Shown here: positions 53,091 to 64,000 of the stretch, piece by piece
Position numbering within the stretch: position 1 is the stretch's first letter
How the letters are laid out: each line of letters starts with the position of its first letter
From: Streptomyces spectabilis
GTDB taxonomy: Bacteria > Actinomycetota > Actinomycetes > Streptomycetales > Streptomycetaceae
Assembly (NCBI RefSeq): GCF_008704795.1
Contig: NZ_CP023690.1
Coordinates: 7,326,501-7,390,500 of the forward strand
Direction of reading: 5' to 3'
Length of the DNA: 64,000 bases
Made by a program: the position numbers and the translations under genes
The notes under the pieces: model-generated
Database searches by the model: none
What the model was told of the DNA's origin: nothing
The model's input: only the letters and a program-made list of their open reading frames with translations

Positions 53091-53135
53091 TGATGCCACT
53101 CGTGGGGCGCTGACCTGCTCGGAAGGATGAAGGGC

Positions 53136-53729
53136 ATGACAGCCGCACCGCTCGGCCGCAGCGCCGACTACACGATCCTGACCACCGGCTACGTGGGCTC
53201 CACCGGCCCCGGTGTCGCCGCGACCGTCTCCTACGTCGCCGACGCGGGCCGCCACTTCGTCTTCGACCCCGGCATGGTCGCGAGCACCGACGACATCCTC
53301 GGCCCGCTCGCCGAACGGGGGCTCGGCCCCGACGACATCACCGACGTGGTGCTCAGCCACCACCACCCGGACAACGTCCTGAACGCGGGCCTGTTCCGCC
53401 GGGCCCGGGTCCACGACCACCAGGTGGAGTACCTCGGCGACCAGTGGCGCAATCGCGACGCCGAGGGCTACGAACTCACCCCGTCACTGCGGCTGATCCG
53501 CACCCCCGGGCACAGCCGCGAGGACATCACGCTCCTCGCGGGCACGGCCGACGGCGTGGTGGCCTTCGCCGGTGACCTGTGGTGGCACGCGGCGGGCCCG
53601 GCGGACGACCCCGTCGCCCCCGACCGCGACGTCCTGCGTGCCTCCCGGCGCCGGGTCATGGCCGTGGCGGACCTGATCGTGCCCGGACACGGCGCCCCTT
53701 TCGTGCCGGACGCAACAACTCCGCTTTAA
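53136..53729 (+). CDS. Metallo-beta-lactamase-fold protein (MBLAC1-like)
   Basis: A 197-residue MBL-fold hydrolase. The metal motif is LSHHHPDNVLNAGLF, where the usual HxHxDH ends in Asn, followed by RTPGHSREDITLL, FAGDLWW and a C-terminal VPGHGAPF. The short length and FDPGMVA opening suit the MBLAC1/CG9000-type branch. Loss of the DH His suggests one of the two metal sites is altered. ATG 53136 follows GGAAGG by 9 nt; an ATG three codons earlier overlaps the ribosome site. The substrate is unknown. Confidence 0.87.
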   Translation: MTAAPLGRSADYTILTTGYVGSTGPGVAATVSYVADAGRHFVFDPGMVASTDDILGPLAERGLGPDDITDVVLSHHHPDNVLNAGLFRRARVHDHQVEYLGDQWRNRDAEGYELTPSLRLIRTPGHSREDITLLAGTADGVVAFAGDLWWHAAGPADDPVAPDRDVLRASRRRVMAVADLIVPGHGAPFVPDATTPL

Positions 53730-54277: not shown

Positions 54278-54565
54278 ATGCAGGGTTCGGCAACAAACGA
54301 AAAGGAAGCTCGCGCAGTGAGTGCAGCGGATGTGGAGCAGGCGGCTGTGACGTGGCTGCGCACCGAGTTGGACGACCCGGAGATCAGCGGCTCCGACAAC
54401 TTCCTCGACATCGGCGGCCACTCGCTGACCTTCTCGAAGCTGAACGCCTTCCTCGGGGACTCGTTCGGCATCGTCCTCGACATGAAGACGACGTACGACG
54501 GGACCCTGGCCGCGGCGCTCACTGCCGCGCAGCCGATCGACAACACCGCGCCGACCAGTAAGTAA
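54278..54565 (+). CDS. Free-standing peptidyl/acyl carrier protein
   Basis: A 95-residue carrier protein. The phosphopantetheine site is S49 in [17 protein letters not shown], with the GGHSL form of NRPS thiolation domains. The order carrier protein then Fe/2OG halogenase matches systems in which the amino acid is chlorinated while tethered (CytC2/CytC3, and the T domain of SyrB1 with SyrB2). ATG 54278 follows GAAGGG by 7 nt. It starts 14 nt upstream of the halogenase and is cotranscribed with it. It needs an adenylation domain in trans; the only one in view is in the NRPS at 58062-61211. Confidence 0.92.
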
Positions 54566-54579
54566 GGGAGTCACCAGAC

Positions 54580-55536
54580 ATGACCAGCAGCCCCGTGCGT
54601 ACGGAGTTCTCGCTGTCGGAGGACGAGCTCGCGTTCTTCCGCAAGAACGGCTACATCGGTCCGATCACCATCTACACGCCCGAAGAGATGGACCAGATGT
54701 GGAAGACCATCCAGCGCGAGACGCTGGACCGGTCGCACGCCGCGTACCCGGAGGTGGACAAGGGCGTCGGTGCCCCGAACATCTTCAACTACGACCGGCA
54801 CCTGGACGTCGACCTGCTGGCCCGGCACGTCATGAACCAGCGGATCACCGACCGCGTGGCCTCGATCCTCGGCCCGGACCTGCTGTGCTGGCGTTCGGAG
54901 TTCTTCCCGAAGTACCCCGGTGACGAGGGCACCGACTGGCACCAGGCGGACACCTTCGCCAACGCCAGCGGCAAGCCGCAGCTGCTGTGGCCCGGTGAGT
55001 CCGAGGAGTCGTTCGGCGCCGGCACGCTCACCGTGTGGACCGCGTTCACCGAGTCCACCCGCGAGAACGGGTGTCTGCAGGTCATCCCCGGCACGCAGCA
55101 CCAGATGAACTACGACGAGACCAAGCAGATGGACTACAACGAGGGGCGCATCAACTCCGAGGTCAAGGACGGCGTCCCGCGCGGCTTCTTCGGCTACGAC
55201 TACCGCCAGCTCCAGAAGGACCCGAACTGGAAGCCCAACGAGGAGGACGCGGTCGCCTTCGAGATGGAGAAGGGCCAGTGCATCATCTTCTGGTCCACGC
55301 TGATGCACGCCTCGCTGCCGAACATCTCCACCGGCAAGAACTACCGCATGGGCTTCGCCACCCGCTACGTGCCCACCGCGGTGCAGATCTACCCCGGCAC
55401 CGACCACATCGAGGAGTACGGCGGGAACATCTCGCTGGACAAGTGGTCGGCCGTACTGGCCCGTGGCCGTGACGAGTTCGGCCACAACAAGATCGCCACG
55501 GAGACGCTGCGCGGCACGAAGTACCTGCCCGCGTAA
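54580..55536 (+). CDS. SyrB2/CytC3-type non-heme Fe(II)/2-oxoglutarate halogenase
   Basis: A 318-residue aliphatic halogenase. The iron site is H121-Q122-A123 in [17 protein letters not shown] and H243 in [10 protein letters not shown]. The carboxylate ligand of hydroxylases is replaced by Ala, leaving room for chloride as in SyrB2 (H116/A118/H235). Most of the chain matches SyrB2 blocks: [65 protein letters not shown]. The enzyme chlorinates an unactivated carbon of a carrier-protein-bound aminoacyl group such as Thr, aminobutyryl or Val. Its substrate here is not known. A strong hairpin 50 nt past the stop separates it from the thioesterase. Confidence 0.96.
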
Positions 55537-55585
55537 CCCGTACGGCGACAAGCCCCACGCCGCAGCCCGGCGGCGTGACGGAGAG

Positions 55586-55624
55586 GTGACGACCCGCGGC
55601 CCCGCCCCGGCCGCGGGTCGTCAC
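55586..55624 (+). terminator. 16-bp perfect hairpin after the halogenase gene
   Basis: GTGACGACCCGCGGCC (55586-55601) and GGCCGCGGGTCGTCAC (55609-55624) pair perfectly around a 7-nt loop, 50 nt past the halogenase stop. It implies that carrier protein and halogenase form their own unit, or that thioesterase expression is set lower by attenuation. The 174 nt after it contain loose GGCACRGC-type direct repeats and no gene. Confidence 0.75.
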
Positions 55625-55798
55625 TTGACGCCGTGTCAGGTATGGGCGAAGGGCACGGCAACGGGCGCGGCAACAGGCACAGTCAAAGGCACAGCTTCGG
55701 GGCACAGCACCACCATCTACCGATCACAGCCGGGCCGTCCGCAGGAGCTTCGTGCCCGCGAACGGCCCGTGCGACGCCACCCGGGGGACAGCGACACC

Positions 55799-56497
55799 GT
55801 GACCACACCGAGCACACCCAGACCCGCGGTCGCCTTCATCCCGCCGTCCTGCTGCGGAGCGGGCTACTTCCGCCGGCTGCGCCGGGAGCTCGGCGACCGG
55901 GTCACCTTCCACGCCCTGGAGCTTCCCGGCCACGGCCGCCGCTACCAGGAGACCCCGCTCACCGACGCCACCGCTGCCGTCGCGGACCTCGCCGCGCGCA
56001 TCGACACCCCGCTCGACGCCCTGTACGGCGAGAGCCTGGGCGCCTATCTCGCGCTGGGCGTGGCGGACGTCCTGAAGCAGGAGCGGCCGCCGCTGCTGCT
56101 CGCCGCGTCCAACTCCCCGCCCTCGGTGCGCGACCGGATCGACCTGGAGGGCCTCGACTCCATCGAGTCCGCGGTCGCCGCGCTGCGCGCGATGGGGGGC
56201 GAGATCCCCCCGGAGGTGCTCAGCGACCCCGAACTCGCCGCGGGCGCCTACCCGTTGATGCGCGCGGACCTGCACCTGGGCCAGTCGTGCATCGACCTCG
56301 TCCGCGGGAGCGCCGCGGCCGGGAACCTGACCGTGTTCGCCGGGGCCGACGACACCGCCCTGACCCGCCTGGAGTCGTGGGCCGCGCACACCCGGGGCCG
56401 CTGCGACGTGACGCCGCTGCCCGGCGGTCACCTGCTCTCCGCCACGAACCCCGCGGGCGTCGCCGAGCGCGTCCTGGAAGCGCTGGCCCGCGGCTGA
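55799..56497 (+). CDS. Type II thioesterase (alpha/beta hydrolase)
   Basis: A 232-residue editing-type thioesterase of NRPS/PKS loci. The nucleophile is S79 in LYGESLGAYLALG, the oxyanion region is FIPPSCCGAGYFRRL, and the catalytic His lies in PLPGGHLLSA near the C-terminus. In cytotrienin-type cassettes a thioesterase accompanies the carrier protein and halogenase. It may release the chlorinated amino acid or clear misloaded carriers. GTG 55799 is chosen because the preceding in-frame sequence is not protein-like. Confidence 0.92.
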   Translation: MTTPSTPRPAVAFIPPSCCGAGYFRRLRRELGDRVTFHALELPGHGRRYQETPLTDATAAVADLAARIDTPLDALYGESLGAYLALGVADVLKQERPPLLLAASNSPPSVRDRIDLEGLDSIESAVAALRAMGGEIPPEVLSDPELAAGAYPLMRADLHLGQSCIDLVRGSAAAGNLTVFAGADDTALTRLESWAAHTRGRCDVTPLPGGHLLSATNPAGVAERVLEALARG

Positions 56498-56657: not shown

Positions 56658-57971
56658 ATGGTGCTGTCCCAAGCGCCTCTTCCCGCGATCGGCCACCATC
56701 AGATGCTGGTCTTCCTGCTCCAGGTCGGCCTGCTCCTCGTGGTCGCGGTGCTGCTCGGCAGGCTGGCCACCTGGTTCCGGCTGCCCCGCGTGGTCGGCGA
56801 GCTGTCCGCGGGCGTGCTCCTCGGCCCTTCGGTGTTCGGCAACCTGCTGCCCGACCTGCGCGACTGGCTGCTCCCGCACGACACCGCGCAGATGCACCTG
56901 CTGGCCGCGGTGGCGCAGCTCGGCGTGCTGCTCCTCGTCGGCATCACGGGCGCGCACATCGACTTCGGCCTGATCCGCAGCAAGCGCAAGGTGATCGGCT
57001 ACGTCAGCGCGGCCAGCGTGCTCCTGCCGCTGGCCCTGGGGGTGGGCCTCGGCTTCCTCATGCCGCAGTCGCTGATGGCCCCCGGCGCCGAGCGCGGCAC
57101 CTTCGCCCTGTTCGTCGGCGTCGCGATCGCCGTCAGCGCGCTCCCGGTGATCGCCAAGACCCTGCTCGACATGAACCTGCTGCACCGCAACGTCGGTCAG
57201 CTCATCATCGGTGCGGCCGCGATCAGCGACATCGTCGGCTGGATGCTCCTGTCCGTCGTCGCCGCGATGGCCACGCGCGGGCTGACCACGGGCCTGGTCC
57301 TGGAGTCCGTCGGCTATCTGATCGCGGTCCTCGTCGCCACGGTCCTGGTGGCCCGGCCGGTGGCCCGCAAGGTCCTGGAGTTCACCGACCGCTCGCCGCA
57401 GAAGGACGTCAGCGCCGCCACGATCGCCGCGATGATCCTGCTCTTCTCGGCCGGCACGCTCGCCCTGGACATGGAGCCGATCCTGGGCGCCTTCCTGTGC
57501 GGCATGGTGATCTGCTCCCTCGGCACCTCCGCCCGCCGGTCCCTGGACTCCATGCGCACCTTCGTGATGTCGACGCTCGCCCCGCTGTACTTCGCCACCG
57601 CCGGGCTCCAGGTCGACCTGTCCGCGCTGACCCGGCCCACGGTGCTCCTGGCGGCGGTGGTCACGCTGCTCATCGCCACCCTGGCCAAGTTCGCGGGCGG
57701 CTACCTCGGCGCCCGGATGGGCGGACTCCAGCACGGCGAGGGCCTCGCCATCGGCGCCGGTCTCAACGCCCGCGGCGTGGTGGAGATCGTCATCGCCACC
57801 GTCGGGCTCAACCTCGGCGTCCTGACCACCGCCACGTACACGATCGTGGTCCTTATCGCCGTGATCACCTCGATGATGGCGCCGCCGTTCCTGCGCCACG
57901 CCACCCGGTCCATGCCGACCACCACCGCCGAGCACGAACGGCAGCGGGAGCTGGCCGGACAGGCCTCCTGA
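56658..57971 (+). CDS. CPA2-family cation:proton antiporter (Kef-type)
   Basis: A 437-residue membrane protein with about 12 hydrophobic segments. Typical CPA2 features are PRVVGELSAGVLLGPSVFGNLLP, the paired acidic region AAISDIVGWMLL and LGAFLCGMVICSLG, and GLNARGVVEIVIATVGLNLGVL. There are no C-terminal TrkA-N domains. Antiporters of this kind occur in several antibiotic loci and may drive export or adjust pH or ion balance. Here its role is inferred from position between the thioesterase and the NRPS. The ribosome site is GGAAGGA. A 31-bp perfect hairpin follows. Confidence 0.92.
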   Translation: MVLSQAPLPAIGHHQMLVFLLQVGLLLVVAVLLGRLATWFRLPRVVGELSAGVLLGPSVFGNLLPDLRDWLLPHDTAQMHLLAAVAQLGVLLLVGITGAHIDFGLIRSKRKVIGYVSAASVLLPLALGVGLGFLMPQSLMAPGAERGTFALFVGVAIAVSALPVIAKTLLDMNLLHRNVGQLIIGAAAISDIVGWMLLSVVAAMATRGLTTGLVLESVGYLIAVLVATVLVARPVARKVLEFTDRSPQKDVSAATIAAMILLFSAGTLALDMEPILGAFLCGMVICSLGTSARRSLDSMRTFVMSTLAPLYFATAGLQVDLSALTRPTVLLAAVVTLLIATLAKFAGGYLGARMGGLQHGEGLAIGAGLNARGVVEIVIATVGLNLGVLTTATYTIVVLIAVITSMMAPPFLRHATRSMPTTTAEHERQRELAGQAS

Positions 57972-58061: not shown

Positions 58062-61000
58062 CTACACGGAGCCGAGGTGCTCGGCGAGCAGCGCCGGGGT
58101 CGGCGCCTGGAAGACCGCCCGCACCGGCACCCGCAGGCCGAGCTCCGCGCCCGCACGGCCGCTCAGCCGGACCGCGAGCTGCGACGTCCCGCCGAGGTCG
58201 AAGAAGTCGTCGTCGACGCCGACCTCATCGCGCTGGAGCAGCTCCGCGAACAGGGCGGCCAGGGCGCCCTCCCGCCCGGTGCGCGGCGTCCGGCCCGCGC
58301 CCGGGTCGGCCGCACTGCCCGCGCCACGGCGCGGGGCGGGCAGCGCGGCCCGGTCCAGCTTCCCGTTCGGGGCCAGCGGCAGCCGGTCGAGGACCACGAA
58401 CGCGGACGGGATCATGAAGGTGGGCAGCCGGTCCACCACATAGCGCCGCAGCACCCGCGGGGTAAGACCGGCCGCCGCCGTGCCGCCCGGCTCGGCCGGT
58501 ACGACGTAGGCGACGAGGGCACCGCTGCCCGAGCCCGCCGCGGGGCGGAGCGCGACCACGGCCTGGACGATGTCGGGGTGGGCGACCAGGGCCGCCTCGA
58601 TCTCGGCCGGCTCGATGCGGATGCCGCGCAGCTTCATCTGGCCGTCGTCGCGCCCGAGGAGCTCCAGCTGCCCGTCGGCGTTCCACCGGGCCAGGTCGCC
58701 GGTGCGGTACATCCGCTCGCCCGCGGGACCGAACGGGTCGGCCAGGAAGCGCTCCGCGGTCTGGCCCGGCCGCGCGTGGTAGCCGCGGCCCACCGCGCCC
58801 GCCACGAACAGCTCGCCCGCCACGCCCTGCGGGACCGGCACCAGACCGGGGCCGAGCACGTACGTGCGCATGTTGCCCAGCGGCGTCCCGATGGGCACGC
58901 CGCCCTCGCCGTGCCAGCCGTCGGGGACGGTGAACGTGGTGGCGTAGAAACTCTCCGTCTGGCCATAGGCGTTGATCAGGGTCGTGTCCGGGAGGGCCGC
59001 CCGCACCTGGTCGGCCAGGGCCGCCGTGAGCTTCTCCCCGGCGAACACCGCTGTGTCCACGGTCAAACGCCCCTGGATCCGCTCCAGTACCTCGGCGAAC
59101 ACCGACGGGACCGTGTGCAGGACGGTGCCCGACCACTGCCCGCGCTCACCGAGCTCAAGCACGTCGCGGACGACCTCGACGGTGGCGCCGGTGCTCAGCG
59201 CGGTGAACACCTCGAACACCGACACGTCGAAGTTGATGGAGCTGCTCGCCAGCATCCGCGCGCCGGGCCGCATGCGCACGATGGAGGCCAGGCGGATCAC
59301 GCCGTTGACGATGTTGGCGTGCGAGAGGGCCACGCCCTTCGGCGTGCCCGTCGAGCCGGAGGTGTACATCAAGTAGGCGAGGTTGTCGGGCCGCGGCGGC
59401 TGTGCGGGGGTGACTCCGGAGCCGTCCCCGGCGGGATCGTCATCGTCGAGGCCGAGCTCTTCGATCAGGCAGCACGTGATGTCGTGCTCCGGCAGCGTCC
59501 CCGCGGTGTCGGCGTCCGTGAGGATCAGGCCGGGCGCGGCGTCCTGGAGGAGATGGCCGAGGCGGCGGCTGGGGTAGCGGGGGTCGATCGGCAGATAGCC
59601 GGCGCCGGACTTCAGGATGCCGAGGAGCGCCACCACCAGGTCGGCGGAGCGCGGCAGGGCGAGGCCCACCACCGACTCCGGGCCGACCCCGGCGGCAAGG
59701 AGCGTGCGGGCGAGCCGGTCGGTGCGCTCGTCCAGTTCGCGGTACGTCAGCGACACGTCGCCGCAGACCACCGCCACGGCGTCCGGGGCCGCGGCGAACT
59801 GCGGCGCCACCAGCTCCGGGATCGTCACCGGCGGGGTGGGGGCCGCGGTGTTCACGAAGTCCACGAGCAGCCGCTGCCGTTCGGCGTCGTCGAGGACGTC
59901 GACCGCGCCCACCCGCACCGCGGGATCGGCGGTCACGTGCCGCAGCGCGCGCAGATAGCAGGCCGCCAGGTACTCCGCGCCCGCGGCGTCGAACAGGTCG
60001 GCGGCGTACTCGACCGTGCCGCGCAGCTCCGCGCCGCCCGCCGCGGCGCGAAGGCGCAGCGACAGGTCGTAGGGGGTGCTGTCCAGCGGCGCCGGCCACG
60101 CGGTGACCGTCAGGCCGGGCAGCGCGGGGGTGGGCTCCGGGCCCTCGCTCAGGTCGAACTCCACCTGGAACAGCGGGTGGTGGGCCAGGGAGCGCTGCGG
60201 GTCGAGCGCGTCCACGAGGAGGGCGAACGGCAGGTCCCGGTGGGCTTCGGCCGCCGCCGTCCTGCGGCGCACCTGGTCCAGGAGGTCCGTGAAGGCCGGG
60301 TTGCCGCTCAGGTCCGCCCTGAGCACCCAGGTGTCGTCGAAGGGGCCCACGCAGCGGGCCCAGGACGCGTCGGGGCGCCGCGCGTCCGACGAGCCGATGG
60401 GGATGTCCGCGCCGCTGCCCAGCTGGTGGAGCACCACCGCGAGGGCGGCGCGCAGCACCGTGCCGGCGGGCACCCCGCGCTGTGCGGCGAGGCCGGTCAC
60501 CGCCGCGGTGAGGTCCTCGTCCACGACCAGGGGGACCCGGCCCGCGCGGTGGCTCGCCTCCGGCGGCCGGGGCCGGTCGGCGGGCAGCGGCAGCGGCGCC
60601 GGCACGCCCGCCAGTTCGGTGCGCCAGAAGGCGGTGTCGCGCGCGAAGGCGCCGTGCGGTCCGCTCTCCTCCTCCAGGAACTTCTGCTCCCACAGGGCGA
60701 AATCCGCATGGGGAACCAGCGTGTCCGGCCAGACGGGCGCGACCCCGTCCCGGCGCGCGGCGTAGGCGGCCGCCAGGTCGTCGGCCAGCGGCCGCAGCGA
60801 TGCCTCGTCCGCGGCGATGCGGTGCGTCACCAGGACGAGCACGTGTTCCTCGGGAGCGCACCGCAGGACCGTGGCGCGTACCGGAATGTCGGTGGTGAGA
60901 TCGAAACGGTGGGACACCCGCGCGGAGACGGCGTCGGAAAGCCGCTCGGGCGCCACCTCGACCAGGGATACGGCGAGGTCGATTTCGGACTCGGGCAGTA

Positions 61001-61211
61001 CGCGCCGGGCGGGAACTCCCTCCGCGTCCTCGGCGCATATCGTGCGCAAACCTTCGTGGCGGGCCACGACGTCCCTGACGGCGCCCATCAGCGCGGTCGT
61101 TTCGAGGGCCCCGGTCATCCGCAGCACCAACGGAATGTTGTGCATGGCCGACGGGCCCTGAATTCGGTGGATGAGCCACAGTCGGCGCTGCGCAAGTGAC
61201 AACGGATTCAT
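58062..61211 (-). CDS. Non-ribosomal peptide synthetase module, C-A-T
   Basis: A 1049-residue single module. The condensation-type domain (1 to about 445) has intact C1 [10 protein letters not shown]2 RHEGLRT, C6 [13 protein letters not shown] and C7 HHPLFQVEF. The active-site C3 motif HHxxxDG reads H130-R131-IAA-D135-E136. The adenylation domain (about 460-965) has [29 protein letters not shown] and NGKLDR. By alignment to GrsA I read the pocket as D-V-F-S-V-A-A-Y-A-K, which I cannot assign. The carrier domain has S1010 in [10 protein letters not shown]. There is no thioesterase domain. ATG 61211 follows AAGGAG by 9 nt. It reads left, convergent with the antiporter and divergent from the ferredoxin. 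Confidence 0.95.
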
Positions 61212-61474: not shown

Positions 61475-61672
61475 GTGCACATCACCGTCGATGAACAGTC
61501 CTGCGTCGGGGCGGGCCAGTGTGTCCTGTCCGTCCCCGACGTCTTCGACCAGGACGAGATGACCGGCCGTGTCGTCCTCCTCCAGGGGCGTCCGCCCGCG
61601 GACCTGGAGGACGACGTGGTCGAGGCCACCCGGGCCTGCCCGGCCCAGGCGATCACCGTGACGGACGACTGA
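61475..61672 (+). CDS. [3Fe-4S] ferredoxin of P450-partner type
   Basis: A 65-residue ferredoxin. The cluster ligands are C-x5-C in SCVGAGQCVLSVPDVFDQD and a third Cys in ACPAQAI. The Gly at the fourth-ligand position marks the [3Fe-4S] type that serves cytochromes P450. GTG 61475 follows GGAGA. An in-frame ATG at 61409 with a better ribosome site (GGGGGAG) would add 22 Arg-rich residues, less likely given family length. It is divergent from the NRPS with a 263-nt gap. No P450 is adjacent, so a partner probably lies past the right edge, or is the P450 at 47.3 kb. Confidence 0.9.
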   Translation: MHITVDEQSCVGAGQCVLSVPDVFDQDEMTGRVVLLQGRPPADLEDDVVEATRACPAQAITVTDD

Positions 61673-61875: not shown

Positions 61876-62982
61876 TCAGCTCGTGAGGACCGCCTTCATG
61901 ACCGATCCGTCGGCGACCGCGGCCAGGGCGTCCGCGTGCCGGTCCAGCGGGAACGCCGTCACCAGACTCGCCAGGTCGAACCGGGCGGCGAGCGTCGGCA
62001 GCAGCCGCACGTACTCGACGAGGTGCGCCCCGGTGAAGGCCCAGGAGCCGATGACGTCGAGCTGGCGGTAGACGATCTGGTGCGGGTTGACCAGCGTGTC
62101 ACCGGCGTCCGTGTACTGGCCGATGACCAGGTACGTGCCGCCCCTGCGGGCCAGGTAGAGGCCCTGGGCGACGGCCTGGGGGACACCGGCGCACTCGATG
62201 ACGAGGTCGGCGCCCTGGCCGCCGGTGGCCGCGTGCACCTCGTTCAGGATGTGGTCCGGGTCGGTGGCGTCGGCGATGTTCAGGTGGACGTCGCCGATGC
62301 CCGCGCGCGCCGCGGCCTCCAGACGCTCGGCCGGGCCGCCGATGACGATGACCTTGGCGGCCCCGGAGAGCTGGGCGAAGGCCGCGGCCGCGAGGCCGAC
62401 CGGGCCGCTGCCCTGGACGACGACGACCTCACCGAGCCGCACCGGGCGGCGCTCGTACAGGGCGTGCACGACGGTGGGGCCCGCGCAGGCCAGTGACATC
62501 GCGGCGAGCGGGTCGACGCCGTCGGCCGCCTTGACGACGGTGGTGCCCTCCTGCAGGACGATGTGGTCGGCCCACGAGCCGGACAGCTCGGGACCGTCCA
62601 CGGTCGAGCGGTTGACCCCGTACGTACGGCGGTTCTCGCAGAGCGTCGGCTCGCGGTGGATCCGGCACGGGGGACAGGTCCCGCAGGCGATGGACGAGGC
62701 CCACATGACGGAGTCGCCGGGCTTGAGCTCGGTGCCGAGGGCGTCGTGCGTGAGGCCCTCGCCCAACTCCCGTATCACGCCCAGGCCTTCGTGGCCCAGG
62801 ACGAGCGGGGTGGGGATCGGCAGGTGGCCCTGGTGCAGATGCAGGTCGGTGCCGCAGATGCCGCCGTAGCCGCAGGCGACGATCATGCCGCGCTCCGGTG
62901 CGGCGGGAAGCGGGTACTCGCGCAGCGCGAGGGGCTTGCCGAACTCCTCCAGGACGACGGCGCGGCCGGTGCGGGCGGTCAT
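61876..62982 (-). CDS. Zinc-dependent medium-chain alcohol dehydrogenase
   Basis: A 368-residue MDR enzyme. The catalytic zinc ligands are in YGGICGTDLHLHQGH and LGHEGLGVI. The structural zinc site is C-x2-C-x2-C-x7-C (CGTCPPCRIHREPTLC). The Rossmann motif is VVVQGSGPVGLAAAAFAQL. It probably oxidises an alcohol made by the adjacent Fe/2OG hydroxylase, or a related intermediate, with NAD(P)+. The ATG overlaps the hydroxylase stop (ATGA), so the two are translationally coupled. Confidence 0.93.
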   Translation of the reverse strand: MTARTGRAVVLEEFGKPLALREYPLPAAPERGMIVACGYGGICGTDLHLHQGHLPIPTPLVLGHEGLGVIRELGEGLTHDALGTELKPGDSVMWASSIACGTCPPCRIHREPTLCENRRTYGVNRSTVDGPELSGSWADHIVLQEGTTVVKAADGVDPLAAMSLACAGPTVVHALYERRPVRLGEVVVVQGSGPVGLAAAAFAQLSGAAKVIVIGGPAERLEAAARAGIGDVHLNIADATDPDHILNEVHAATGGQGADLVIECAGVPQAVAQGLYLARRGGTYLVIGQYTDAGDTLVNPHQIVYRQLDVIGSWAFTGAHLVEYVRLLPTLAARFDLASLVTAFPLDRHADALAAVADGSVMKAVLTS

Positions 62983-63791
62983 ACGGTCGCCTCCTCGAGG
63001 TCGTCGAGGAAGGTGCCGTCGAGCGGGGCGAGCGGCGCGGAGTCGCGGCACACCACGTAGTCGGGACGGGCCTCGCCGGGCCAGCTCGGCAGATTGCTGA
63101 CCTCGTTGTACGTCGCGATGAGCAGGCGACGGGCGAAGGGCGACATGTTCGGGGCCGAACCGTGCACGATCTCCGAGGAGAAGAGCACCACGGAACCGGC
63201 CGGGCCCTTCGGGCTGACCATGCCGTGCCGGTCGACGAGGTCGGCCAGCTGCTCGGGGGAGAGCGAGATGTCGTCCGGGTCCAGGTGCTGGCTGGACTTG
63301 CGCTCCTCCTTGCGGCCCTCGTGCACGAGCCCGTCGCGGTGCGAGCCGGGCAGGAAGATGACCGGGCCGTTGAACTCGGTGACGTCGTCGAGGAAGACGC
63401 CCACGTTGACCTGGACCGGGGCGGGCAGGTTGTCGGAGATCTGCCAGGCGAGGAAGTCCTGGTGCCACGCCCACTTGTCGCCGCCGAAGGCGGGCTTGGC
63501 GTTGATCTTGAACTGGTAGACGTACACGTCGTCGGTGAGCAGCTGCTGGGCGGGGACCAGGATGCGCGGGTCACGCATGAGGCGGGCGTATTCGGCCTGC
63601 CGCTGGTGCGAGGAGTACACGGCGCGCACTTCCTCGCCGCCGTCCTCGATGATCCGGTGCGGACCCGGCGTGTTGCAGTCGCGCTGGAACGCCGTGCGCA
63701 GCCGGTCCACCTCGTTCTCGTCCAGCAGGGAATCGAGGAGTAGGAAACCGTTGTCCCGGTACTGCTCCAACTGCTCCTGGGTCAGACGCAT
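62979..63791 (-). CDS. PhyH-type Fe(II)/2-oxoglutarate hydroxylase
   Basis: A 270-residue phytanoyl-CoA-dioxygenase-family enzyme resembling ectoine and amino-acid hydroxylases. The facial triad is complete: H110-x-D112 in WHQDFLAWQ and H210 in SSEIVHGSAPN. R221 follows, placed to bind 2-oxoglutarate. Unlike the halogenase at 54580, Asp is kept, so hydroxylation rather than chlorination is expected. The likely substrate is an amino acid or carrier-bound intermediate of this locus. It is second in the leftward operon, 67 nt after the SDR stop, with AAGGAG 11 nt before the ATG. Confidence 0.92.
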   Translation of the reverse strand: MRLTQEQLEQYRDNGFLLLDSLLDENEVDRLRTAFQRDCNTPGPHRIIEDGGEEVRAVYSSHQRQAEYARLMRDPRILVPAQQLLTDDVYVYQFKINAKPAFGGDKWAWHQDFLAWQISDNLPAPVQVNVGVFLDDVTEFNGPVIFLPGSHRDGLVHEGRKEERKSSQHLDPDDISLSPEQLADLVDRHGMVSPKGPAGSVVLFSSEIVHGSAPNMSPFARRLLIATYNEVSNLPSWPGEARPDYVVCRDSAPLAPLDGTFLDDLEEATV

Positions 63792-63858: not shown

Positions 63859-64000
63859 TCACCCCATGAAATGTCCGCCGTCCACGATGAGCTGCTGCCC
63901 CGTGATGTAGGCCGACCGCGACGTCACCAGGAATTCGAGCGCGTCGGCGATGTCCTGCGGGGTGCCGATGCGCTTCTGGGGAATGGAGTCGAGGATGGCC
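63859..64000 (-). CDS. Short-chain dehydrogenase/reductase, C-terminal fragment
   Basis: Only the last 46 residues are in the window. They read RIGTPQDIADALEFLVTSRS then YITGQQLIVDGGHFMG, the classic C-terminal signature of SDR-family oxidoreductases. The N-terminal Rossmann motif and YxxxK lie past the right edge. It is the first visible gene of the SDR, hydroxylase, zinc-dehydrogenase series and shows that the biosynthetic locus continues. Confidence 0.9.
   Translation of the reverse strand, partial: AILDSIPQKRIGTPQDIADALEFLVTSRSAYITGQQLIVDGGHFMG

Follow-up and report, generated by a model that had tools for sequence, protein, structure and literature searches.

The question raised by a 64,000 nucleotide stretch of Streptomyces spectabilis DNA (contig NZ_CP023690.1, positions 7,326,501 to 7,390,500; hereafter the window) is which amino acid is chlorinated by the aliphatic halogenase encoded near its right end, between a discrete carrier protein and a type II thioesterase, and in which peptide the product is used. 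The phylogenetic placement of the halogenase, the distribution of piperazate synthase and the surrounding genes suggest that these genes very probably make up a KthP-like cassette for chloropiperazate, a chlorinated form of the uncommon cyclic amino acid piperazic acid, within a cluster that directs the synthesis of a cyclic, piperazate-rich (depsi)peptide.

The first gene of the cassette (54278..54565, + strand) codes for a carrier protein of 95 amino acids (aa) with a GGHSL motif (GGHS at residue 46), which matches PF00550 at 23.5 bits (cut-off 20.8) and is proposed as the candidate piperazyl carrier for chlorination. After a spacing of 14 bp it is followed by the gene for the KthP-type Fe(II)/2-oxoglutarate halogenase (54580..55536, +; 318 aa), which matches TIGR01762 at 445.9 bits (curated cut-off 226.3) and aligns over nearly its full length with CytC3 (PDB 3gja, E 2.5e-129) and SyrB2 (PDB 2fct, E 2.3e-128). 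Its iron site consists of H121-Q-A123 and H243, with HxA...H replacing HxD...H. The type II thioesterase (55799..56497, +; 232 aa, GESLG; PF00975, 72.4 bits) has a likely GTG start, 112 codons ahead of which its open frame (55463-56497) opens, and is proposed as the enzyme that would release chloropiperazate from the carrier. A preliminary description of this locus had named these three genes in this order and the same iron-site residues, and both are confirmed here, the former by the open reading frames (ORFs) and profile matches and the latter by the alignment with CytC3 and SyrB2. Its broader proposal, of an aliphatic, carrier-dependent halogenase whose chlorinated product enters a nonribosomal peptide, is likewise supported at the sequence level. 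The halogenase query returned one match in the S. spectabilis genome. A second halogenase in the cluster was considered and rejected; the one flavin Trp-halogenase match in the genome (62 residues, 25.7 bits; Pfam cut-off 21) is unconvincing.

A scan of genome contigs recovered 226 halogenase relatives, and the 80 best were retained; a quick tree comprised 86 rows and a careful tree 41 rows hand-picked from those 86. In both trees the window halogenase falls in a clade of 11 rows (support 99/94 in the careful tree). Its companions there are the enzymes of the loci L004, L005 and L009-L015 plus a Kutzneria sp. 744 halogenase, one of two in that strain; in the careful tree CytC3, the other Kutzneria gene and L017-L019 all fall outside the clade. 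CytC3 occurs in a separate, strongly supported clade with L053, L034, L025, L036, L041, L021 and L031. The branching within the 11-row clade is only partly resolved.

The two Kutzneria sp. 744 halogenases share 75% and 54% identity with the window halogenase. The former is found in an antiporter-carrier-halogenase-thioesterase context, with a condensation-adenylation-thiolation (C-A-T) protein encoded upstream on the opposite strand. The latter adjoins an acyl-CoA-dehydrogenase-like ORF (judged by eye) and a 531 aa A-domain protein whose code, DAFFLGMTFK, we take to be Ile-like, next to the nonribosomal peptide synthetase (NRPS) in the KtzE position. KthP, of the kutzneride pathway, is described as chlorinating C5 of T-domain-bound piperazyl (PMC11705231, PMC12615548), and KtzD as acting on isoleucyl, with cryptic chlorination (PMC12615548). 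Because of these published roles, the gene with 75% identity was assigned to KthP from its context, and the gene with 54% identity was taken as the KtzD side. Cryptic cyclopropanation of the KtzD type was rejected for the window, as the KtzD-side enzyme is just 54% identical and has other partner genes beside it. In the account of Jiang et al. 2011, 12 ORFs reportedly lie between KthP and the main cluster.

Pseudonocardia sp. EC080625-04 contributes another member of the clade through its plasmid pFRP1-1 (L005), whose halogenase is 78% identical to that of the window. The gerumycin (ger) genes of this strain are presumably those on pFRP1-1. Strain EC080625-04 is described as a producer of gerumycins (PMC10932968), which contain piperazate bearing chlorine and/or hydroxyl (PMC4778507), and the gerumycin cluster is plasmid-borne in one strain according to a review (PMC7793712).

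Piperazate synthase was sought genome-wide in 40 genomes (41 of the 80 loci were chosen, L056 being left out), comprising all eight clade loci of the scan and a hand-picked spread of others, with the S. spectabilis synthase as query. Homologues are encoded in all eight clade genomes (57-95% identity) and in four of the 32 other halogenase genomes, three at 49-87% and one weakly at 32% (Fisher 2e-6 when 8/8 is set against 3/32 and 6e-6 when it is set against 4/32, relatedness ignored). They are also present in the S. spectabilis genome and in the L004 and L005 stretches.

A further link to piperazate is provided by a stand-alone NRPS of 1049 aa (58062..61211, -; PF00668/PF00501/PF00550, T domain GGTS), encoded convergently with the cassette operon and here termed C*-A-T for its altered condensation domain. 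Its adenylation code reads DVF(T/H)VAAYAK, with T called by script and H by ungapped reading by eye. Published piperazate codes include DVFTVAAYAK (ArtG-A2), DVFSVAAYAK (HmtL-A1) and DVFSVGPYAK (KtzH-A1) (PMC9866976), and the code of the C*-A-T is, judged by its letters, of the piperazate type. When tested on the lunaemycin NRPSs, the code caller returned the Lun23 and Lun20 codes exactly and the four piperazate codes right to type only, its Lun22 calls departing from the published ones at position 278 and, for three of the four, also at 330/331; the codes are used as type only. Because the window enzyme groups with the KthP-assigned and gerumycin-producer enzymes, and because the clade genomes carry piperazate synthase, the residue made by the cassette is most likely 5-chloropiperazate.

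The carrier-halogenase-thioesterase order is kept in 11 of the 11 clade loci and is thus not attributable to chance, and in nine of them, the window included, an antiporter gene follows. The carrier motif is GGHSL in ten loci and GGHSM in L005, and the thioesterase motif GESLG in all 11. In the window this fourth gene of the strand (56658..57971, +) codes for a CPA2-type cation:proton antiporter of 437 aa (PF00999, 160.6 bits), whose best NCBIfam match, the CPA2 model TIGR00932, scores 134.5 bits and thus below its cut-off of 238.3. The downstream antiporter is 58-91% identical in eight other clade loci (L004, L005 and L009-L014), and no antiporter was seen within 10 kb in L015. The KthP locus shares with the window the order of the three genes, an antiporter and an opposite-strand C-A-T protein with a piperazate-type code and a lost catalytic His. 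Its antiporter, however, is a distant homologue (~32% identical) encoded upstream of the carrier gene, its C-A-T gene is upstream and divergent, whereas that of the window is downstream and convergent, and its piperazate synthase homologue lies ~63 kb away, compared with ~514 kb in S. spectabilis. Plasmid pFRP1-1 has the full carrier-halogenase-thioesterase-antiporter order, as well as nearby homologues of the ligase-KR-T protein described below (51%) and of a thioesterase (57%). Unlike the window, it has genes for MbtH and an LmbU-type regulator upstream and no adjacent C*-A-T in the stretch read; a 5454 aa NRPS frame occurs elsewhere on the plasmid.

In the pathway proposed here, an ornithine N-hydroxylase and a piperazate synthase encoded elsewhere in the genome would supply L-piperazate, and the A domain of the C*-A-T would activate it as the aminoacyl-AMP. 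The T domain receiving the piperazyl group would be that of the C*-A-T itself or, by transfer, the discrete carrier. There the halogenase, with chloride held in the site freed by the Asp-to-Ala replacement, would abstract a C5 hydrogen and rebind chlorine. The type II thioesterase would release 5-chloropiperazate, or alternatively clear mis-loaded carriers, and insertion of the 5-chloropiperazate into the ring would fall to one of the main NRPS's A domains with a code of the piperazate type.

The single PF04299 gene of the S. spectabilis genome, at 7.896 Mb (L103:10677-13029), lies ~514 kb from the halogenase, and its product matches the solved piperazate synthase PDB 9ebk at 332.6 bits. It is divergent from an adjacent ornithine N-hydroxylase gene, and ORFs resembling ArgJ and acetylornithine transaminase (by eye) and an MbtH gene (7898372) occur close by; together these likely form a supply operon. 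None of the 11 genome matches to the ornithine-hydroxylase family PF13434 and none of the seven to MbtH fall within the NRPS cluster, and the window cluster probably relies on this unlinked operon.

The part of the cluster read rightward from the carrier gene amounts to ~47 kb and extends past the right end of the window (coordinates above 64000 continue the window numbering in the same genome). Module order was derived from motif positions, with Pfam support for the methyltransferase (MT) domain. An NRPS of 2041 aa (65472-71597) comprises A-T-epimerisation (E) and C-A*-T modules, A* being a degenerate A domain, and is followed by a thioesterase (71611-72390) and a ligase-ketoreductase (KR)-T protein of 1270 aa (72387-76199). 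For the latter, an A-KR-T keto-acid module was considered and rejected, since its first domain is matched best by models of fatty acyl-CoA/AMP ligases. The second NRPS, of 5902 aa (76360-94068), has the order C-A-T-E, C-A-MT-T, C-A-T-E and C-A-T-thioesterase (TE), and the code of its first A domain is DVFSVGPYAK. The MT domain at ~83700-85240 is inserted in an A domain of piperazate-like code, an unusual pairing. Further to the right are genes for a cytochrome P450 (94188-95459), two radical-SAM proteins and a methyltransferase (101087-101731). The first radical-SAM protein (96197-98521) has a B12-binding match of 22.8 bits, below the cut-off of 32.1, while the second (98534-101080), which also contains DUF5825, matches at 32.1 bits, at the cut-off, and matches TIGR03975 at 609 bits. 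The occurrence of two such proteins in an NRPS cluster is a separate observation; their best models are P-methyltransferase and RiPP (ribosomally synthesised and post-translationally modified peptide) C-methyltransferase families.

The preliminary description recognised no described cluster in the surrounding gene set, but the 2041 aa NRPS shares 59% identity with the KtzE-position protein of Kutzneria sp. 744 (1551 aligned positions), and the identity of the 5902 aa NRPS to the lunaemycin protein Lun22 reaches 64%. The lunaemycin cluster is described as combining an A-T-E with an inactive module and ending in an NRPS of four modules (PMC9866976). A starter A-T-E with an inactive module and a four-module, TE-ended NRPS, as in clusters of the kutzneride/himastatin/lunaemycin type, are likewise found here, placing the cassette, on domain layout, in a kutzneride/lunaemycin-like NRPS cluster. 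In L009, too, a 5867 aa frame with a matching C domain lies on the cassette contig, ~15 kb from the C-A-T as in the window genome. The lunaemycin cluster of S. lunaelactis (pSLUN1) further resembles that of the window in having piperazate codes and a stand-alone C-A-T with a dead C domain. It differs in that the 20 annotated features read from it include no halogenase or ligase-KR-T, the C-A-T has an Ile code rather than one of the piperazate type, the second module of the window's terminal NRPS carries an MT domain, and genes of the piperazate-supply type lie next to the lunaemycin NRPSs. In S. spectabilis such genes lie outside the cluster, unlike what is expected of a cluster of the kutzneride/himastatin/lunaemycin type.

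The most probable of the alternatives, though less likely than not, is that the whole cluster is the published svetamycin cluster or a close allele. Svetamycins are described as having one piperazate halogenated at the gamma position, one methylated at the delta position, a dihydroxylated tetrahydropyridazine and a glycolic acid unit (PMC13194151), which could be matched to the cassette, the B12 radical-SAM proteins, the P450, PhyH and dehydrogenases, and the ligase-KR-T protein (glycolate), respectively. They thus resemble the residues predicted for the window, namely gamma-halo-piperazate, C-methylated piperazate, a hydroxylated piperazate-like residue and a hydroxy acid. The B12-binding matches at and below the Pfam cut-off argue against this identity, and kutznerides, which have their own hydroxy acid, could share several of these genes. 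The published strain is further described as carrying the bab supercluster, for an indolocarbazole and an aromatic polyketide (PMC12701797), whereas the S. spectabilis genome has the single 62-residue Trp-halogenase match (25.7 bits). PMC12701797 credits Morshed et al. 2021 with the svetamycin cluster and notes that the MIBiG svetamycin entry contains another cluster.

A second alternative turns on the condensation domain of the C*-A-T. At the HHxxxDG site it reads THRIAADE, as in L009, and the corresponding proteins read VHGIAADE (L010), THRIAADD (Kutzneria sp. 744), VHQIAADE (L004) and LHPLAVQD (L011), the catalytic second His being lost in six of the six cassette-adjacent C-A-T proteins. 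HH is kept in 31 of 31 other distinct aligned C domains, a non-random set of best matches to this domain, mostly from larger NRPSs. One HH-keeping C domain occurs in a 1228 aa frame of single-module size (L112), and live single-module C-A-T proteins may thus exist too. The stand-alone Ile C-A-T of lunaemycin, Lun20 (L136:29868-33086), reads LHQIAADR and has also lost the catalytic His; hence this loss is not confined to halogenase cassettes. On these residues, dead-C C-A-T proteins look like enzymes that load a carrier in trans, and Lun20 may feed the inactive module of Lun23 in this way; the published scheme presents Lun20 as elongation module 3 (PMC9866976). For the window C*-A-T, the halogenase-side carrier is the natural candidate target and the A*-module the alternative.

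That the C*-A-T would instead load (chloro)piperazate in trans on A*-module 2 of the 2041 aa NRPS, without serving the halogenase, is considered rather unlikely. The degenerate A domain of this module and the equally His-less Lun20 would fit such a role, as would the hydroxy-Ile of lunaemycin A, which may correspond to the place of the inactive Lun23 module (PMC9866976). The C*-A-T is, however, found beside the halogenase operon in six of the 11 clade loci, and the ligase-KR-T protein would be a candidate feeder of module 2 in depsipeptide clusters.

To the right of the C*-A-T the window encodes a single-cluster ferredoxin (61475..61672, +; 65 aa from a GTG start, PF13370/PF13459), a Zn-dependent medium-chain dehydrogenase (61876..62982, -; 368 aa, PF00107/PF08240), a PhyH-family 2-oxoglutarate dioxygenase (62979..63791, -; 270 aa, PF05721, 112.6 bits) and a short-chain dehydrogenase (63859..64000, on to 64593 beyond the window, -; 244 aa, PF13561, L002:11863-12594:-). 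The PhyH protein resembles ectoine hydroxylase, with a score below the cut-off of that model, and its H110-Q-D112 motif is of the hydroxylase type, ruling it out as a second halogenase. Among the compared loci, high-identity homologues of the PhyH protein and the Zn-dehydrogenase (98%) occur in L009 only, while the short-chain dehydrogenase has homologues in L009 (98%) and L018/L019 (57%) and the ferredoxin in L009 (98%) and L010 (83%), where the L010 contig ends. The possible left edge of the cluster is marked by a metallo-beta-lactamase-fold protein (53127..53729, +; PF00753) with a homologue, among the compared loci, in L009 only (94%).

These ferredoxin, dehydrogenase, PhyH and P450 genes would suit a cryptic chlorination, of the kind described for KtzD (PMC12615548), in which the chlorinated intermediate is consumed by the nearby dehydrogenases through elimination or cyclisation, for example to dehydropiperazate, and the product is chlorine-free. 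This is improbable, as at least some gerumycin congeners keep their chlorine and the accessory genes shared with L009 lie outside the conserved cassette. Kutznerides 2 and 8, too, presumably retain chlorine.

CytC3 and SyrB2, whose substrates are acyclic, share with the window halogenase its sequence family, the HxA/H iron site and a carrier-bound substrate. The aminobutyryl, valyl and threonyl substrates expected in the preliminary description are not supported, as the clade evidence favours piperazyl, and of the CytC2-C4 parallel drawn there the gene order holds, as seen in the CytC3-like locus L053, but the careful tree, with CytC3 in another clade, rules out a CytC-type substrate as first choice. 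It is accordingly very improbable that the aminoacyl group chlorinated by the cassette is acyclic (threonyl, 2-aminobutyryl or valyl), as with CytC3 and SyrB2, and that the C*-A-T is an unrelated module, for although the L053 gene order, the shared HxA site and the presumed threonine-type L018/L019 branch nearby would allow it, it is countered by the separate CytC3 clade, the KthP-assigned and gerumycin-producer plasmid enzymes within the window's own clade, the piperazate synthase in all eight clade genomes searched and the piperazate-type code of the adjacent A domain.

Several observations nevertheless weigh against a chloropiperazate cassette. Several within-clade branches are weak or unresolved, so the substrate is inferred by bracketing, and the KthP assignment stems from gene context rather than from a match to the UniProt record. 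The co-occurrence of piperazate synthase could reflect shared cluster history and not the substrate, and three to four of the 32 other halogenase genomes carry the gene as well. The piperazate genes are unlinked to the cassette in S. spectabilis, the code caller wobbles at two or three positions, and a stand-alone C*-A-T is adjacent in only six of the 11 clade loci, with none in the read stretches of L005 and L012-L015. Lun20, with its dead C domain and Ile code, shows the same architecture without an adjacent halogenase. L018 and L019, the nearest rows outside the clade, one being S. iakyrus, are enzymes that we take to chlorinate threonine, and a substrate switch around this part of the halogenase tree is therefore possible. 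Piperazyl chlorination by the window halogenase is thus a prediction from sequence.

A point in favour of the chloropiperazate reading comes from L017 of a Saccharopolyspora, also just outside the clade, which encodes a stand-alone A domain, a carrier and a halogenase (L017:8190-10918); no piperazate synthase match was found in its genome. The A domain has the code DFWSVGMVHK, presumably threonine-like, and this set is likely a chlorothreonine cassette. Farther afield, a Salmonella enterica plasmid typed IncI1 (L006:13181-20311) carries genes for an A domain, carrier, halogenase (64% identical), transporter, hydrolase and phosphopantetheinyl transferase near plasmid maintenance genes.

A survey of the linkage with antiporter genes covered 295 congeneric genomes; TIGR01762 halogenases, 29 in total, are encoded in 27 of them. 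It used 150 of the 215 matches to PF00999, a family broader than the CPA2 group. The S. spectabilis halogenase was left out, its antiporter not being among the matches listed. Among these matches, a PF00999 antiporter is found within 10 kb of at least 12 of 28 halogenases and of none of 85 MbtH genes (94 minus nine within 30 kb of a halogenase), which served as a stand-in for NRPS clusters generally (Fisher 6e-9, with lower bounds on both sides and relatedness ignored). Two linked antiporter sequence types were observed, that of the window and that of Kutzneria, L036, L041 and L047. Ion or pH balance, or self-protection, are candidate roles for the antiporter in aliphatic chlorination pathways. 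No paper describing the halogenase-antiporter link was found in a full-text search of the open-licence literature, as judged by title and abstract start, and no description of a dead-C C-A-T loader was met in the open-licence literature searched, where no search was aimed at the loader.

Neither the enzyme type nor its chemistry nor the compound class is new, and the window cassette adds another member; the dead-C C-A-T loader and the recurrent antiporter linkage represent new leads. A speculative extension would see here a transferable chloropiperazate unit, in which the condensation domain has given up catalysis and now serves for transfer or docking, the C*-A-T hands piperazate to the carrier, similar proteins feed the inactive modules of sister clusters such as lunaemycin, and the antiporter is a working component of aliphatic chlorination pathways that has been repeatedly recruited. 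A vague expectation of some chlorinated amino acid is replaced by a specific and testable substrate, piperazyl, and the halogenase clade marks where chloropiperazate peptides could be mined. The discrete acyl carrier protein, the dead-C C-A-T and the thioesterase are the likely natural partners of KthP-type enzymes, and the dead-C loader offers a simple test of how feeding in trans works for modules with a broken A domain or for discrete carriers. More generally, the linked antiporters are a clue to aliphatic halogenase clusters.

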